Source: Methanobrevibacter millerae
GTDB taxonomy: Archaea; Methanobacteriota; Methanobacteria; Methanobacteriales; Methanobacteriaceae
NCBI RefSeq assembly: GCF_900103415.1
Contig: NZ_FMXB01000008.1
Coordinates: 1 to 64,000 of the forward strand
Direction of reading: 5' to 3'
DNA: 64,000 nucleotides
Shown here piece after piece: positions 3,554 to 51,404 of this stretch (within the stretch, counting starts at the first letter, position 1; each line of letters starts with the position of its first letter). The notes under the pieces were generated by a model that had not been told where the DNA came from, ran no database searches, and saw only the letters and a program-made list of their open reading frames with translations. The position numbers were made by a program, and so were the translations under genes.

Positions 3554-4273
3554 CTATTTTCTCCTTAAAGATGAAAGTAATGACTCTACAGCATTGCCCA
3601 GGTCTTCTTTGTTTATTGAAGAGACTGATTCAAATACAGGTTTGGAATGTCTTTCCTTTATGTCATCACTGAATTCTTTGATTGCTTTTGCAATGTGTTC
3701 ATGTCTTTCGTCGATTTTTGAAATCTTTTCAATGAACTCATCCTTGTCTGCATCTTCAATTTCAGGATTTTCTTTAATAGCTGAACTTAAGTTTCTAAGA
3801 AAATCAGAATGAACATTTCCAAATTCGGACTGGTTGTTGTATTTGGCGAGTTCCGGAATGTCTCTGATGATTTCACCGGAGGTTTTGTCCAAAAAGGATC
3901 TTCCTTTAGGTGAAACGACTCTTCCGCCTTCAACCTTTTCAACGAAACCTGCGTCTTCCAATTGGTGAAGAGCGTTTCTAATGATAGCTCCGCTACCTTT
4001 TCTAAATACTTCAGGAGTTACACCACGGTCTTTTTTACCACCGTAGAAAGTTCTTAAACTCATTACTCCAACAGGTCCGTCAATGTAAACTCTTCTGATG
4101 ATAGATGCGCATCTTACATACCACCAATCAGCGTTTTCCGGTTTTCTTTCTTTGTGAACACCGGTTTTGACGTAATTGGACCATGCAGGGGAATTGATTT
4201 TATCATTATCTTTAAATTCTTCTGCGACTTTTTCAATTAATAAATCTGCAGGTACATCAAATACAGTAGTCAT
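3554..4273 (-). CDS. rps19e: 30S ribosomal protein S19e with a long C-terminal extension
   Basis: The first ~145 of 239 residues are a normal archaeal S19e, a small-subunit protein needed for late 16S maturation: [18 protein letters not shown], the [21 protein letters not shown] core, then [21 protein letters not shown] and GRSFLDKT. Archaeal S19e usually stops near residue 150. Here about 95 more residues follow, charged and helical ([25 protein letters not shown], then [22 protein letters not shown]), ending SSLRRK. There is no frameshift or internal start signal, so the extension is part of the protein. Its function is unknown. The ATG has GGAG upstream. Confidence 0.92.
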
Positions 4274-21678: not shown

Positions 21679-21837
21679 AAAAATATCTCCTTATAATTAC
21701 TAACATTAAATTATTTATAAATCATTTTTAATAAAACTTACCTAAAAAAATATGATTTTATCAAAAAAATTATCAAAAAGCCCGAAAAAAGCAAACCTTT
21801 AAATGTAATAATGAATTAATATATGTATGTTATATAT

Positions 21838-21947
21838 GCCGGGGTGGCTCAGCTGGTTAGAGCGCACGGCTCATAGGGTATAAAAGCAGTGCTCTGACTA
21901 ATACCTGGGATACCGTGAGGCCACGGGTTCGAATCCCGTTCCCGGCA
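21838..21947 (+). tRNA. tRNA-Met (CAT), elongator type, with a 36-base intron
   Basis: The acceptor stem GCCGGGG pairs with TCCCGGC, discriminator A. The D arm GCTC/GAGC, anticodon stem CACGG/CCGTG and T arm CGGG/CCCG are intact. The anticodon CAT is at 21872-21874. After A37 an insert at 21876-21911 interrupts the loop at the canonical 37/38 position and is presumably removed by the splicing endonuclease. The mature length is 74 bases. CCA is not encoded. tRNA-Ile2 (CAT, modified) is the alternative reading. A TATA-like AATTAATATATG lies about 20 bases upstream. Confidence 0.92.
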
Positions 21948-22053
21948 TACTTAAATCCCAGGTATTCACTTTTTAAACTATTTTTCTATTATTTCAGCAA
22001 ATCATAACAATTTTATACTTTTTTTAACAAAAATACCTGTAAGAGGGTATTAA

Positions 22054-48222: not shown

Positions 48223-48256
48223 AAAAAAAAATGTTTGAGGAAAAAATCCCCAAACA
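48223..48256 (-). terminator. Terminator of the RNA ligase transcript
   Basis: On the minus strand TGTTTGGGG pairs with CCTCAAACA around an ATTTTTT loop with one mismatch, followed by nine T. It lies directly after the ligase stop codon. Confidence 0.6.
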
Positions 48257-48259
48257 CGA

Positions 48260-49480
48260 CTATTCCCCTCTTTTAATTAGGTACTTGCAGGAAATATTTT
48301 TAAAACTGAACTTAGGATCAGTTGTTTTGTAGTATACCCAACCTTCCATAGCACATTTTTCATGACCTTCACATACATCGGAATCGTAGTATCCGTCAGC
48401 GCTTAGCTTGAACTCTTCGAAATCATCCGGAAGAACGTATTCCTCATCATCAATCGGAACACTTTCAATTCCGTATTCATCCCAGATCTTTTTAGCTTCG
48501 CGAATGTCGAACATTCCATTACTGTCGATCATGTGGAAACAGAAAAGATGATTTTGCGTTAACTTATGCGGATTTCCTTGAATTTTCGGACCGCAAATCT
48601 CGCCTTGCCAGCAGACATACTTGCAGCCTTTGTGCTTTTCCAGATAATCTCTGAGTTTTCTTTCAATGTCAAGCTTATCCGCCAGTTCCCAGTATGGATT
48701 GTCATTATCAACTAAAGGGTCATCTTCCCTGAATACGCGCAGATTGCGGGAGCAGACGTAGAATTCATAGTCCTTTTTTAATGGATGTGTATTGGTCACT
48801 TCCAGAATGTATGTGGCGGAAGATCCGTCACATTTCTGCGTACGGACAAACGGGGTCTTGTCCTGCAATACGTCCGGCATGTTTTCGCAGCGTTCCTGGT
48901 CAGTCTTGGAAATATGATCAAATTTATTTGGAAAACGCTTACTTTTATCTTTCCTGTCATCACCTAAAAGGAAAAATAACAGTTTTTTACCCCAATCTCT
49001 ATTCATTAACCATTTCACCCAGGATTTTTCAAACAGTTCCTTGTTGCGCAGCGCCATGGCTTCGTACTTGTTTAGACCTTCGCCTTTGCGTTTAGCGTCC
49101 TTAGGGTTTGAGTATTTAATCTCAAGCAATTCGGTTACATCCGTGCCTTCCTTTTTTGGAATTTCGACATCGAAAATATCCAGAGGAAGTGCTATGCCCT
49201 GAGAGATAACATTGAACCTGGAAAGTCTCATGGTCTTGATTTTGAAGTGTTTGCGTCTTAAAAACTCAGACCACTCCTTTTCGGGAACCTTTGAATCTAT
49301 TTCAATGTATACGCAAAAATCCCCTTTTTCAAATTCGCCGATTTTTGAGATACAATTCCATCCCAGAACCCCAATAAGTTCTATGTTATCCGCCCCTTCA
49401 ATTTCTTTAACCCAGGATATTTTTTCAACGTGGGCAAGGGAACGCTTTCCATCAATTATCAAACATTTCACCTCCGTCAT
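48260..49480 (-). CDS. RNA ligase, Rnl5/DRB0094 family
   Basis: The protein has 406 residues. The N-terminal OB-like domain (about 15-100) shows EIEGADNIELIGVLGWNCI, KIGEFEKGDFCVYIEIDSKVPE and KTMRLSRFNVISQGIALPL, the pattern of Deinococcus DRB0094 ligase. The nucleotidyltransferase domain has motif I KCDGSS (Lys216 would be adenylated), motif III around WQGEICG (about 291-297), motif IV EGWVYYK (379-385) and motif V with Lys394 and Lys399. Such enzymes seal 3'-OH/5'-phosphate RNA nicks. It lies 87 bases downstream of an eleven-member tRNA array on the same strand, with no strong promoter or terminator between, and has its own terminator after it. Repair of cut tRNA is the obvious guess; not shown. 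Confidence 0.88.
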   Translation of the reverse strand: MTEVKCLIIDGKRSLAHVEKISWVKEIEGADNIELIGVLGWNCISKIGEFEKGDFCVYIEIDSKVPEKEWSEFLRRKHFKIKTMRLSRFNVISQGIALPLDIFDVEIPKKEGTDVTELLEIKYSNPKDAKRKGEGLNKYEAMALRNKELFEKSWVKWLMNRDWGKKLLFFLLGDDRKDKSKRFPNKFDHISKTDQERCENMPDVLQDKTPFVRTQKCDGSSATYILEVTNTHPLKKDYEFYVCSRNLRVFREDDPLVDNDNPYWELADKLDIERKLRDYLEKHKGCKYVCWQGEICGPKIQGNPHKLTQNHLFCFHMIDSNGMFDIREAKKIWDEYGIESVPIDDEEYVLPDDFEEFKLSADGYYDSDVCEGHEKCAMEGWVYYKTTDPKFSFKNISCKYLIKRGE

Positions 49481-49567
49481 TTATTATTTAATAATTATGG
49501 CAAAACATGCTATTAACTAATACAATTTTAATGAAAACAAGCTGTTATTACAGAATGTCTTCAAGAA

Positions 49568-49640
49568 TGGACCTGCCGGGATTTGAACCCGAAGCATCCT
49601 CCTTGCAAGAGAGGCATTCTACCAATTGAATTACAGGGCC
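49568..49640 (-). tRNA. tRNA-Ala (TGC), with a C3-U70 mismatch
   Basis: Acceptor GGCCCTG against CAGGTCC pairs except at position 3:70, where C faces U. Archaeal and other tRNA-Ala normally have G3-U70, the main AlaRS identity element. The D arm, anticodon stem CCTCT/GGAGG (one U-G) with loop CTTGCAA, and T arm CGGG/CCCG are sound, discriminator A. Reading the anticodon as GCA (Cys) breaks the stem. Last member of the array, next to the ligase gene. Confidence 0.82.
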
Positions 49641-49645
49641 ATAAA

Positions 49646-49718
49646 TGCTATAGCTGGGATTCGAACCCAGATTCCAACCTTGGAAGGGTCGTGTGTTACC
49701 GATTATCACTACTAAAGC
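49646..49718 (-). tRNA. tRNA-Gly (TCC), with a U4-U69 mismatch
   Basis: Acceptor GCTTTAG against CTATAGC pairs except T4-T69. The D stem has a 13:22 A-A mismatch. The anticodon stem is CGACC/GGTTG with loop CTTCCAA; T arm CTGGG/CCCAG; discriminator A. Only 5 bases separate it from the tRNA-Ala gene. CCA not encoded. Confidence 0.82.
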
Positions 49719-49735
49719 ATGGAAAAATTTTTAAA

Positions 49736-49820
49736 CGGTGAAGGAGAGATTCGAACTCTCGTGTCCTAACGGACTCTGGATTAGCAGTCCAGTAGAATAG
49801 GCCATCTATCTGACTTCACC
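49736..49820 (-). tRNA. tRNA-Ser (GCT)
   Basis: Perfect acceptor stem GGTGAAG/CTTCACC, discriminator G as in serine tRNAs, anticodon stem CTGGA/TCCAG with loop CTGCTAA, and a long variable arm (GTCC/GGAC). 85 bases long. Well formed, unlike its two neighbours. Confidence 0.9.
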
Positions 49821-49898
49821 AATAGTTCTGGATTATAAACCTCATCTGCAGGGCCTAATTGACTCATGCAAGACAATCAGCCCATGATTTTTAGAGTA

Positions 49899-49969
49899 TG
49901 GGGGTAGAAGGAATTGAACCTCCAGCCACTGATCTGGAGTCAGTGATGTTGCCATTACACCATACCCCC
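49899..49969 (-). tRNA. tRNA-Trp (CCA), intronless
   Basis: Acceptor GGGGGTA/TACCCCC, D arm GTGT/ACAT, anticodon stem ACTGA/TCAGT with loop CTCCAGA, T arm GGAGG/CCTTC (one G-U). Discriminator A. Euryarchaeal tRNA-Trp genes commonly carry a box C/D intron; this one does not, so it may be an extra copy. Confidence 0.88.
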
Positions 49970-49977
49970 CCCAAAAC

Positions 49978-49996
49978 GGGCAGGAAAATCCTGCCC
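49978..49996. other. Hairpin in tRNA array spacer
   Basis: GGGCAGGA-AAA-TCCTGCCC, a perfect 8 bp stem between the Trp and Gly(GCC) tRNA genes. Only four T follow on the minus strand, so it is not a typical terminator. Confidence 0.6.
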
Positions 49997-50017
49997 ATTT
50001 TAATTGCCGGGCCTAAG

Positions 50018-50089
50018 TGCTCTAGCAGGGACTTGAACCCTAATCTCAGCCTTGGCAAGACCGTATGTTACCAATTACACCACTAAAGC
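50018..50089 (-). tRNA. tRNA-Gly (GCC)
   Basis: Acceptor GCTTTAG/CTAGAGC (one U-G), D arm GTGT/ACAT, anticodon stem CGGTC/GGCTG with loop TTGCCAA, T arm TAGGG/CCCTG. Discriminator A. Its sequence is related to the Gly(TCC) gene of the same array. Confidence 0.88.
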
Positions 50090-50092
50090 AAA

Positions 50093-50109
50093 AGCCGGAA
50101 AAACCGGCT
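50093..50109. other. Hairpin in tRNA array spacer
   Basis: AGCCGG-AAAAA-CCGGCT, a perfect 6 bp stem directly upstream (minus strand) of the Gly(GCC) tRNA 5' end. Confidence 0.55.
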
Positions 50110-50148
50110 AATTAGAGGAATAGGGATTTATGGAATATGTAATCCCAA

Positions 50149-50217
50149 AGGGGGAGACTCGACTTGAACGAGTATCACTTGAAAAACCAAGGGTTTTACC
50201 AGTTAAACCACTCCCTC
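50149..50217 (-). tRNA. tRNA-like gene, probably Lys (TTT), malformed anticodon arm
   Basis: Acceptor GAGGGAG/CTCCCCC with A2-C71 mismatched; D arm GTTT/AAAC and T arm ACTCG/CGAGT are good. The best anticodon arm is CTTG/CAAG, four pairs, with a six-base loop GTTTTT, not the usual five pairs and seven bases. The discriminator is T. Either a decayed gene or an unusual tRNA; the amino acid is a guess. Confidence 0.5.
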
Positions 50218-50239
50218 AATTGATTATTAAGCGGTAATG

Positions 50240-50254
50240 GGGGGATAAACCCCC
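50240..50254. other. Hairpin in tRNA array spacer
   Basis: GGGGG-ATAAA-CCCCC, a perfect 5 bp G-C stem between the two malformed tRNA-like genes. Confidence 0.5.
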
Positions 50255-50308
50255 AATAAAAATACCCTGATGGAGAAATTAGCTTCCACCAAGATATTTT
50301 GCTTTTGG

Positions 50309-50377
50309 TGCGCCGTAGCGGACTCGAACCGCATCATCTTCCAAAAGGAGATGCTCTTCCATTTGAGCTAACGACGC
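50309..50377 (-). tRNA. tRNA-like gene, probably Lys (TTT), oversized anticodon loop
   Basis: Acceptor GCGTCGT pairs with ACGGCGC (one U-G), D arm GCTC/GAGC, T arm GCGG/CCGC. The anticodon arm is CATCT/AGATG with a nine-base loop CCTTTTGGA, or ATCTC/AAGAT with a C-A closing pair and loop CTTTTGG; both centre on TTT. Gln (TTG) is the alternative. The variable region is only about two bases. Uniquely in the array, CCA follows the discriminator A (50306-50308). Confidence 0.55.
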
Positions 50378-50392
50378 ATAATCATCTGACCT

Positions 50393-50425
50393 GGGCCTAA
50401 TTGAAATATTTAATCAATTAGGCCC
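50393..50425. other. Long perfect hairpin in tRNA array spacer
   Basis: GGGCCTAATTG pairs with CAATTAGGCCC over an 11-base loop: an uninterrupted 11 bp stem. GGGCCTAATTG also occurs at about 49852 in another spacer, with an imperfect partner. Confidence 0.65.
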
Positions 50426-50521
50426 TTTAGAATTAATGGGAATAATGAAAATCAGATTAAATGGGCGGAATGATTCCCATATTCCCAATCACCATTGAAT
50501 TACCAATTACATGCATTAAAA

Positions 50522-50593
50522 GGTTTCATAAGGGAGTTGAACCCTTGCCTCATGCGTCACAGACATGTATGTTGCCGTTACACCAATGAAACC
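50522..50593 (-). tRNA. tRNA-His (GTG)
   Basis: An eight-pair acceptor GGTTTCAT/ATGAAACC gives the encoded G-1 facing C73, the histidine identity pair. D arm GTGT/ACAT, anticodon stem CATGT/GCATG with loop CTGTGAC, T arm AAGGG/CCCTT. Well formed. Confidence 0.92.
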
Positions 50594-50603
50594 ATAGCCC
50601 AAA

Positions 50604-50677
50604 TTGGCTTGGAGGGATTCGAACCCTCGGCATCCGCCTTGTAAGGGCGGCACTCTACCAGGCTGAGTCACAAGCCA
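50604..50677 (-). tRNA. tRNA-Val (TAC)
   Basis: Acceptor TGGCTTG/CAAGCCA (unusual U1-A72 start), D arm ACTC/GAGT, perfect anticodon stem CCGCC/GGCGG with loop CTTACAA, T arm GAGGG/CCCTC, discriminator A. Confidence 0.88.
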
Positions 50678-50766
50678 GTATATTATTTGGAGTTTAAAAT
50701 TAAACCCCAAATTTTGGAGATCAAAATATGAAAGCATATCTTTGAATGGCCAGATAATAAGGCCAA

Positions 50767-50840
50767 TGAGTGCGAAGGGAATTGAACCCCCGATTTTCGG
50801 ATTAAAAGTCCGACGTATTACCCTACTATACTACGCACCC
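50767..50840 (-). tRNA. tRNA-Lys (TTT)
   Basis: Acceptor GGGTGCG/CGCACTC (one G-U), D arm GTAT/ATAC, anticodon stem TCGGA/TCCGA with loop CTTTTAA, T arm GGGGG/CCCTT (two G-U). Discriminator A. A regular lysine tRNA, in contrast to the two odd TTT genes downstream in the array. Confidence 0.9.
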
Positions 50841-50868
50841 GCTATGAATAATTATTCTGAAATTTGAA

Positions 50869-50940
50869 TGGGAAAGCCAAGACTCGAACTTGATTCCCAT
50901 GCTTCCAAAGCACAGATGCTAACCCGTACACCACTCTCCC
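50869..50940 (-). tRNA. tRNA-Pro (TGG)
   Basis: Acceptor GGGAGAG/CTTTCCC (one G-U), anticodon stem TGTGC/GCATG with loop TTTGGAA, T arm TCAAG/CTTGG. First gene of the array in the direction of transcription. Confidence 0.85.
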
Positions 50941-51252
50941 AACATGAAATTCAAATTTTTCTTCAACTCATAATGCTAAGATTAGAATATTTTCTAAATC
51001 TGCTATACAAGTTAATCCATCGATCTAATTATTTAAAAGCCGTAAAAAATCAGTTTCATTAGATAACTCTAATGGAAGATAAACAAAATATAACGGGTAA
51101 TGAAAAAAAGGTAATTGGCGGATAATTAATCATTAAGCCCAAAGTTGGACTTAACCAAATACCTACTGCATTGCCACGCAGAAATATTCTGTCTATTCAT
51201 TGACTTTGTACAACTCGGGCATTTAATATTCATAACAATCTCTCATTAATTT

Positions 51253-51324
51253 ATTGAAATCTAAATAATAATCTATTTCATTTTATATATAAATCAAATA
51301 AAGGAAACACTTTATATTAACCTA
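51253..51324. repeat. 72-base direct repeat, copy 1
   Basis: From ATTGAAATCTAAAT to ATATTAACCTA. It matches copy 2 except for three bases (TTT versus CCC before ATATATAAATC). It carries a TATA-like TTTATATATAAA stretch readable on both strands. The copies are 80 bases apart, with an eight-base spacer. Confidence 0.85.
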
Positions 51325-51332
51325 CACATCCA

Positions 51333-51404
51333 ATTGAAATCTAAATAATAATCTATTTCATCCCATATATAAATCAAATAAAGGAAACACTTTATATTAA
51401 CCTA
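51333..51404. repeat. 72-base direct repeat, copy 2
   Basis: Near-identical to copy 1. Two copies in a promoter-rich region suggest duplicated promoters or duplicated small RNA genes rather than a CRISPR or mobile element. Confidence 0.85.

Follow-up and report, generated by a model that had tools for sequence, protein, structure and literature searches.

Phages, some bacteria, and a few archaea are known to carry redundant tRNA arrays, the purpose of which is a matter of debate. We describe here one such array, together with the RNA ligase gene that follows it, in Methanobrevibacter millerae; the window analyzed is a stretch of 64,000 nucleotides, contig C8:1-64000 (NZ_FMXB01000008.1), of a 2.72-Mb genome in 48 contigs (referred to as G000) whose relatives belong to Methanobrevibacter. 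We consider it reasonably probable that the array and the ligase form one operon, set apart from the rest, of a regulon for translation repair and tRNA replacement that is chromosomal and probably inducible.

In Anabaena sp. PCC 7120, the TrcR regulon unites a silent tRNA operon of 26 genes (trn) with rtcB, rsgA, and rimK and is derepressed by translation stress (PMC10272220); its repressor, TrcR, is of the ribbon-helix-helix type. The M. millerae system is similar in that a redundant tRNA array appears to stand under the same operator as an RNA ligase and genes of translation. Stress induction has been proven in Anabaena and is presumed here; the present system is archaeal and has a box with a TATA element in place of the TrcR site; it also adds an Rnl5-type ligase, RlaP, second copies of the elongation factors EF-1A and EF-2, a leader RNA, and several arrays. 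By analogy, the regulon is best read as the archaeal counterpart of the TrcR regulon.

RlaP in the company of ligases and tRNAs is a recognized answer of jumbo phages to tRNA cleavage (PMC7824862). Among gut phages, those with theta-ribozyme-associated tRNAs show an enrichment of DRB0094 ligases (PMC10879173). The arrays of phage A3Wally and of jumbo phages (PMC7824862) resemble ours in placing tRNAs ahead of a same-strand ligase from the same family and in having RlaP, RtcB, and kinase partners, whereas the locus described here is chromosomal and archaeal, is putatively coregulated with elongation factors and chaperones, and has no viral genes nearby. Archaeal tRNA clusters of the same kind, including those of M. 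ruminantium M1 (the G019 array, 360-363.8 kb) and RUG344, were reported by Morgado and Vicente in 2019 (PMC6333295); as far as the accessible portion of that report extends, no link to a regulon, leader RNA, ligase, or elongation factor is described for them. TROVE is common near haloarchaeal tRNA clusters and is absent here, with a TROVE-domain protein (PF05731) found in 0 of 27 genomes.

A promoter box shared by arrays and RNA repair genes

Comparison of the DNA upstream of the arrays yielded a box composed of an inverted repeat and a TATA-like element, TAAAG-N6-CTTTA-N2-YRANTTATATA, which stands twice before the window array:

51366 to 51394, minus strand: distal copy of the regulon box, TAAAGTGTTTCCTTTATTTGATTTATATA, inverted repeat plus TATA
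51286 to 51314, minus strand: proximal copy of the regulon box, identical to the distal copy, 80 bp on

A genome-wide pattern search of G000 allowing at most one mismatch returned 18 matches, 16 in C5:65-142 kb and the 2 before the window array, against 0 for the reversed control. All 10 matches away from tRNA arrays fall inside this 77-kb stretch of C5, where boxes precede three tRNA groups, RtcB, a second EF-1A, a second EF-2, a kinase/Hsp70 neighborhood, and other genes; RlaP on C5 has its own copy with two mismatches. In other species, boxes lie before RtcB (37 to 47 bp away), RlaP (34 bp), and RlaP-ligase operons, as well as before EF-2', EF-1A', VWA proteins, GlmS', a metallophosphatase, and tRNA arrays. 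RlaP is in an operon with the RNA ligase in four relatives (in G000 it sits on C5), and in G019 a box with three mismatches is located just upstream of the ligase itself. The box and the gene content are conserved over two GTDB genera, the leader RNA within one genus only. An operator-like box before arrays, RtcB, and RlaP-ligase genes is thus shared in the manner of the common operator by which the TrcR regulon is recognized. Because the array and the ligase have the same box and regulon as RlaP, RtcB, and the other tRNA arrays, we regard the link between them as regulatory rather than one of adjacency, and they probably belong to one system that both supplies and repairs tRNAs. The preliminary description of this DNA had proposed a system that supplies and reseals tRNAs; that idea is retained on the strength of the common box, and adjacency is no longer its support.

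The products encoded in C5:65-142 kb, named by Pfam and NCBIfam matches (EF-2 by sequence), include RtcB, RlaP, three low-molecular-weight phosphatases, a Ser/Thr kinase-Hsp70 fusion, an FHA protein, a SIS protein, DnaK, a polynucleotide-kinase-like protein, ClpP, ClpX, a GlmS paralogue, and EF-1A. The last is a second copy, 82% identical to the chromosomal one, and the C5 EF-2 is likewise a second copy, the canonical EF-2 also being present in the genome; an altered diphthamide loop in the second EF-2 was considered and discarded, as the HRGPAQ loop is found in the canonical protein too. The genes for the kinase-Hsp70 fusion and the FHA protein are adjacent in the RtcB neighborhood. An array, the ligase, RtcB, a second EF-2, and boxes are all present in M. 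ruminantium M1, and in G057, which has neither the ligase nor RlaP, the same island contains the array, flanked by VWA/EF-1A' on one side and DnaK on the other. PADLOC gave no match for the ligase, RtcB, or RlaP, and the kinase matched generic defense kinases.

Taken at its wider limits, C5:56000-147000 (L132, L001, and L133-L135) is an island of approximately 90 kb that carries RtcB, RlaP, the second EF-1A and EF-2, the kinase-Hsp70 fusion, 30 tRNAs, DnaK, ClpXP, four low-molecular-weight phosphatase domains, VWA proteins, and beta-helix proteins. Between the box and the RlaP-ligase operon in L028 (~600-690), L029 (~600-690), and L030 (~3600-3700) there is a mini-tRNA-like element, with the acceptor stem and T-arm of a tRNA and little else. 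G078 and G081 have four RlaP genes each, with no Rnl5-type ligase detected.

In the mechanism that we propose, damage to translation, such as tRNA cleavage by toxins or antiviral nucleases, would relieve repression or trigger activation at the box, a putative operator. Spare tRNAs and the second EF-1A and EF-2 would then restart translation, the nucleotidyltransferase RlaP would restore cut RNA ends, the ligases (Rnl5-type and RtcB) would seal them, and chaperones and ClpXP would clear the products; sensing and relay may fall to the kinase-Hsp70 fusion and the FHA protein, the latter also being a candidate regulator. A role in countering tRNA-cutting toxins is plausible. We entertain more tentatively the possibility of a switchable parallel translation apparatus, in which a complete additional set of tRNAs, served by an EF-1A and EF-2 of its own, would replace the ordinary set during the repair of cut tRNAs by RlaP, RtcB, and the Rnl5-type ligase and would be wired via the kinase-Hsp70 fusion and the FHA protein to the palindromic box. 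The box, the leader RNA, and the complementarity of isotypes give a concrete hypothesis for the purpose of redundant tRNA arrays. If the regulon operates as suggested, it would be the means by which an archaeon responds when its translation machinery is damaged, a parallel to the Anabaena TrcR regulon that is present in a rumen methanogen open to culture (M. ruminantium M1), and would assign functions to many so far unexplained genes of gut archaea that produce methane.

The tRNA set of the array

The array consists of the following genes:

50868 to 50941, minus strand: tRNA-Pro (TGG), by ARAGORN and RF00005
50767 to 50840, minus strand: tRNA-Lys (TTT), by ARAGORN and RF00005
50604 to 50677, minus strand: tRNA-Val (TAC), by ARAGORN and RF00005
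50521 to 50593, minus strand: tRNA-His (GTG), by ARAGORN and RF00005
50306 to 50377, minus strand: tRNA-Lys-like gene (TTT), CCA encoded, lowest score of the array
50149 to 50217, minus strand: tRNA-like gene with a short anticodon loop and no isotype call
50017 to 50089, minus strand: tRNA-Gly (GCC), by ARAGORN and RF00005
49899 to 49969, minus strand: tRNA-Trp (CCA), intronless, unlike the host copy on C22, which contains an intron
49735 to 49821, minus strand: tRNA-Ser (GCT), by ARAGORN and RF00005
49645 to 49719, minus strand: tRNA-Gly (TCC), by ARAGORN and RF00005
49567 to 49641, minus strand: tRNA-Ala (TGC), by ARAGORN and RF00005

ARAGORN placed 11 tRNA genes on the minus strand of the window at 49567-50941, and Rfam model RF00005 found the same 11 above threshold (38.7-70.2 bits), in agreement with the earlier count of eleven tRNA or tRNA-like genes on one strand within 1.4 kb. 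Two odd TTT genes had been noted among them: the gene at 50306-50377 is a Lys-TTT gene and the weakest of the set, but that at 50149-50217, with its short anticodon loop, has no assigned isotype. Counts of tRNAs and arrays were made across 62 widely scored genomes; the genomes compared in this study are drafts in part and are related to one another. With 77 tRNA matches in G000 and 31 to 38 in the complete genomes of the genus that lack arrays, the presence of 11 tRNAs in 1.4 kb is not due to chance.

Eight of the nine anticodons of the window array also occur in the ordinary host set; Ala-TGC was not found elsewhere in the G000 draft assembly. The array is thus, Ala-TGC excepted, an extra set and not the sole genomic source of its tRNAs, which argues for a backup set rather than for additional decoding capacity. 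The tRNA groups on C5 comprise 4, 9, and 17 genes (30 in all), and together with the window array they cover 20 of 20 isotypes, Ser and Val alone being present on both sides (2 shared isotypes observed; shuffled mean, 5.6; P = 0.008). The closest matches of the window array tRNAs are in the arrays of other Methanobrevibacter species, and for most isotypes comparable both ways, array tRNAs are nearer to other species' arrays than to the ordinary tRNAs of the host. Evasion through altered anticodon loops, as with mycobacteriophage tRNAs (PMC10264068), was also considered; the result was mixed, several array loops being identical to those of the host.

This redundancy bears on the proposal that the extra tRNAs and elongation factors boost capacity for fast growth or for the synthesis of large surface proteins, RNA repair being secondary. 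Several large adhesin-like or beta-helix proteins are encoded in the C5 island and the elongation factors are duplicated, as that proposal would have it, but nearly all array anticodons duplicate those of the host, so no new codons would be served, and the presence of RlaP, RtcB, and the Rnl5 ligase in one regulon points to cut RNA; we consider the proposal unlikely.

Leader RNA and transcription signals

Between the boxes and the first tRNA lies a putative structured leader, and beyond the ligase a terminator:

51129 to 51222, minus strand: leader RNA with a three-way-junction-like fold, 31 consensus pairs (covariance model, 99.8 bits)
48231 to 48257, minus strand: strong hairpin-plus-T9 terminator, after the ligase

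The leader has a stable predicted fold with a long terminal helix, and the element also occurs before arrays in four other species and twice on C5. In a search of 139 genomes of the family (Methanobrevibacteriaceae), which was also the sample for the ligase, the covariance model found it in 5, precisely the members of the genus that were seen to have an array as well as the ligase. Support from covariation is thin: in 8 sequences, double changes affect 3 pairs. A small open reading frame is open in all copies, but variable columns are spread 13/13/14 over the codon positions and the pairs are kept, and RNA is therefore preferred. In arrays of the M. ruminantium type (L089-L092) a different leader element occupies that place, with an open frame of ~48 codons, also foldable.

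The strong terminator at 48257-48231 follows the ligase, and none was found between tRNA-Ala and the ligase, as had been described previously; within the array, hairpin-plus-T matches of lower strength occur at 50719-50705 and 50109-50093. Since there is neither a terminator between the array and the ligase nor a box before the ligase, both are most simply read from the array promoter, which would yield a joint transcript.

The RNA ligase and its origin

48260 to 49480, minus strand: Rnl5-type ATP-dependent RNA ligase with intact catalytic motifs (open reading frame, domain matches, and alignment)

The ligase open reading frame begins 86 bases downstream of the array on the same strand. Its assignment to the Rnl5 type, made in the preliminary description, is borne out by matches over cutoff to PF21189 (OB domain, 78.2 bits) and PF09414 (46.4 bits), which give the Rnl5 architecture of an N-terminal OB module and an RNA-ligase nucleotidyltransferase domain, and by the motifs K216-x-D/E-G, SRN, QGE, EG, and SFK, in which K216, R245, E294, E379, and K394 are invariant in an alignment of 19 sequences. 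The score against the NCBIfam equivalog TIGR02306 is below cutoff (84.8 versus 151.15 bits), and we therefore name the protein Rnl5-type, a divergent relative and not a DRB0094 equivalog. The activity that marks Rnl5 ligases is the sealing of 3'-OH/5'-PO4 nicks in duplex RNA. Rnl5/DraRnl (DRB0094) and Naegleria Rnl share with it the N-terminal OB module, the nucleotidyltransferase domain, and motifs I to V and are its best sequence and fold match; the nearest solved relative, by sequence and predicted fold, is the nick-sealing Naegleria gruberi Rnl (PDB 5cot). The structure model is of moderate confidence (pLDDT 69; input alignment without phage-record rows). Compared with Rnl5/DraRnl, the window ligase, at ~406 amino acids, has an extra helical stretch (about 138-172). 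Most orthologues begin MII(D/N)GKRSLAHVE, which makes the TTG at 49462, preceded by GGAGGTG, the likely true start.

The ligase is single copy in G000 and full length or nearly so in nine other genomes; G086, one of the nine, shows a TAA within the match, and G075 and G094 have one in-frame stop each. At none of these nine loci does an array adjoin the ligase within the flanking DNA covered (G069 has one tRNA-Leu). The adjacency is peculiar to G000 among the compared ligase loci, and a conserved array-ligase neighborhood, for which the preliminary description had proposed a search, is rejected. Across genomes, tRNA totals tend to be high where the ligase is present (77, 58, 66, 52, 45, and 43), compared with 31 to 38 in most genomes without it, and arrays occur in 7 of 10 ligase genomes versus 6 of the 52 remaining ones (P = 0.0003, without correction for relatedness).

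A distant ligase homologue, a 449-codon open frame with 25 to 41% identity to the window ligase, is present in G046:C83 and G050:C134 (L038-L041); these two genomes lack the Rnl5-type ligase, and G050 has 55 tRNAs. A VWA-domain gene lies directly upstream of the ligase in L032 (G028), and VWA genes carry the box in other genomes.

A viral origin of the whole unit had also been suggested. On such a reading, the array and ligase would have arrived as a mobile island or phage counterdefense cassette and would be kept by chance or still serve an integrated element. The window ligase is 47 to 53% identical to ligases on rumen viral contigs, several of which carry tRNA genes, and in the ligase tree the archaeal ligases form one group inside a strongly supported set otherwise made up of such contigs and one Bacillota bin; in Microbacterium phage A3Wally, six annotated tRNAs are followed 48 bases on, on the same strand, by a ligase of the same family. 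An old exchange of the ligase with phages is likely and an old viral source possible, but the array is flanked in the window by the housekeeping genes ThiC, PAN, and class I LysS, no capsid, terminase, or integrase appeared among the scanned products, the array tRNAs match other Methanobrevibacter arrays, relatives of the ligase stand in RlaP operons away from arrays, and the box and leader are common to EF-1A, EF-2, and RtcB. A viral island is hence improbable, and the regulon as a whole looks chromosomal and not like a recent virus remnant.

Evidence weighed against a common regulon

Several findings tell against a translation-repair and tRNA-replacement regulon of which the array and ligase are part. 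No box belongs to the ligase itself in G000, and the 86 bp that separate it from the array are AT rich, so that a private promoter is possible; no box match at all was found in G047 or G050. Arrays occur without this ligase in G057, G049, G050, G031, G072, and G022, and the ligase occurs without arrays in G047, G075, and G094 (the latter two with the in-frame stop), some of the genomes with only one of the two being incomplete assemblies; because the genomes are related, the co-occurrence counts are not independent. Part of the array tRNAs look degenerate, and only in some do the anticodon loops differ from those of the host.

That the arrays are decaying, partly pseudogenized duplicates beside which the ligase happens to lie, driven by a separate promoter and serving another task, for example RNA circularization, would suit the two odd tRNA-like genes of the window, the unconserved adjacency, and the pseudogenes reported in most archaeal tRNA clusters (PMC6333295), but it is very unlikely given that 10 of the 11 genes score 43 to 70 bits, that all 11 keep 6 or 7 paired acceptor positions, that the box, the leader RNA, and the complementarity of isotypes have been kept, and that the ligase motifs are intact.

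Elsewhere in the window, an ordinary host gene for tRNA-Met (CAT) with an intron is located at 21837-21948 on the plus strand.

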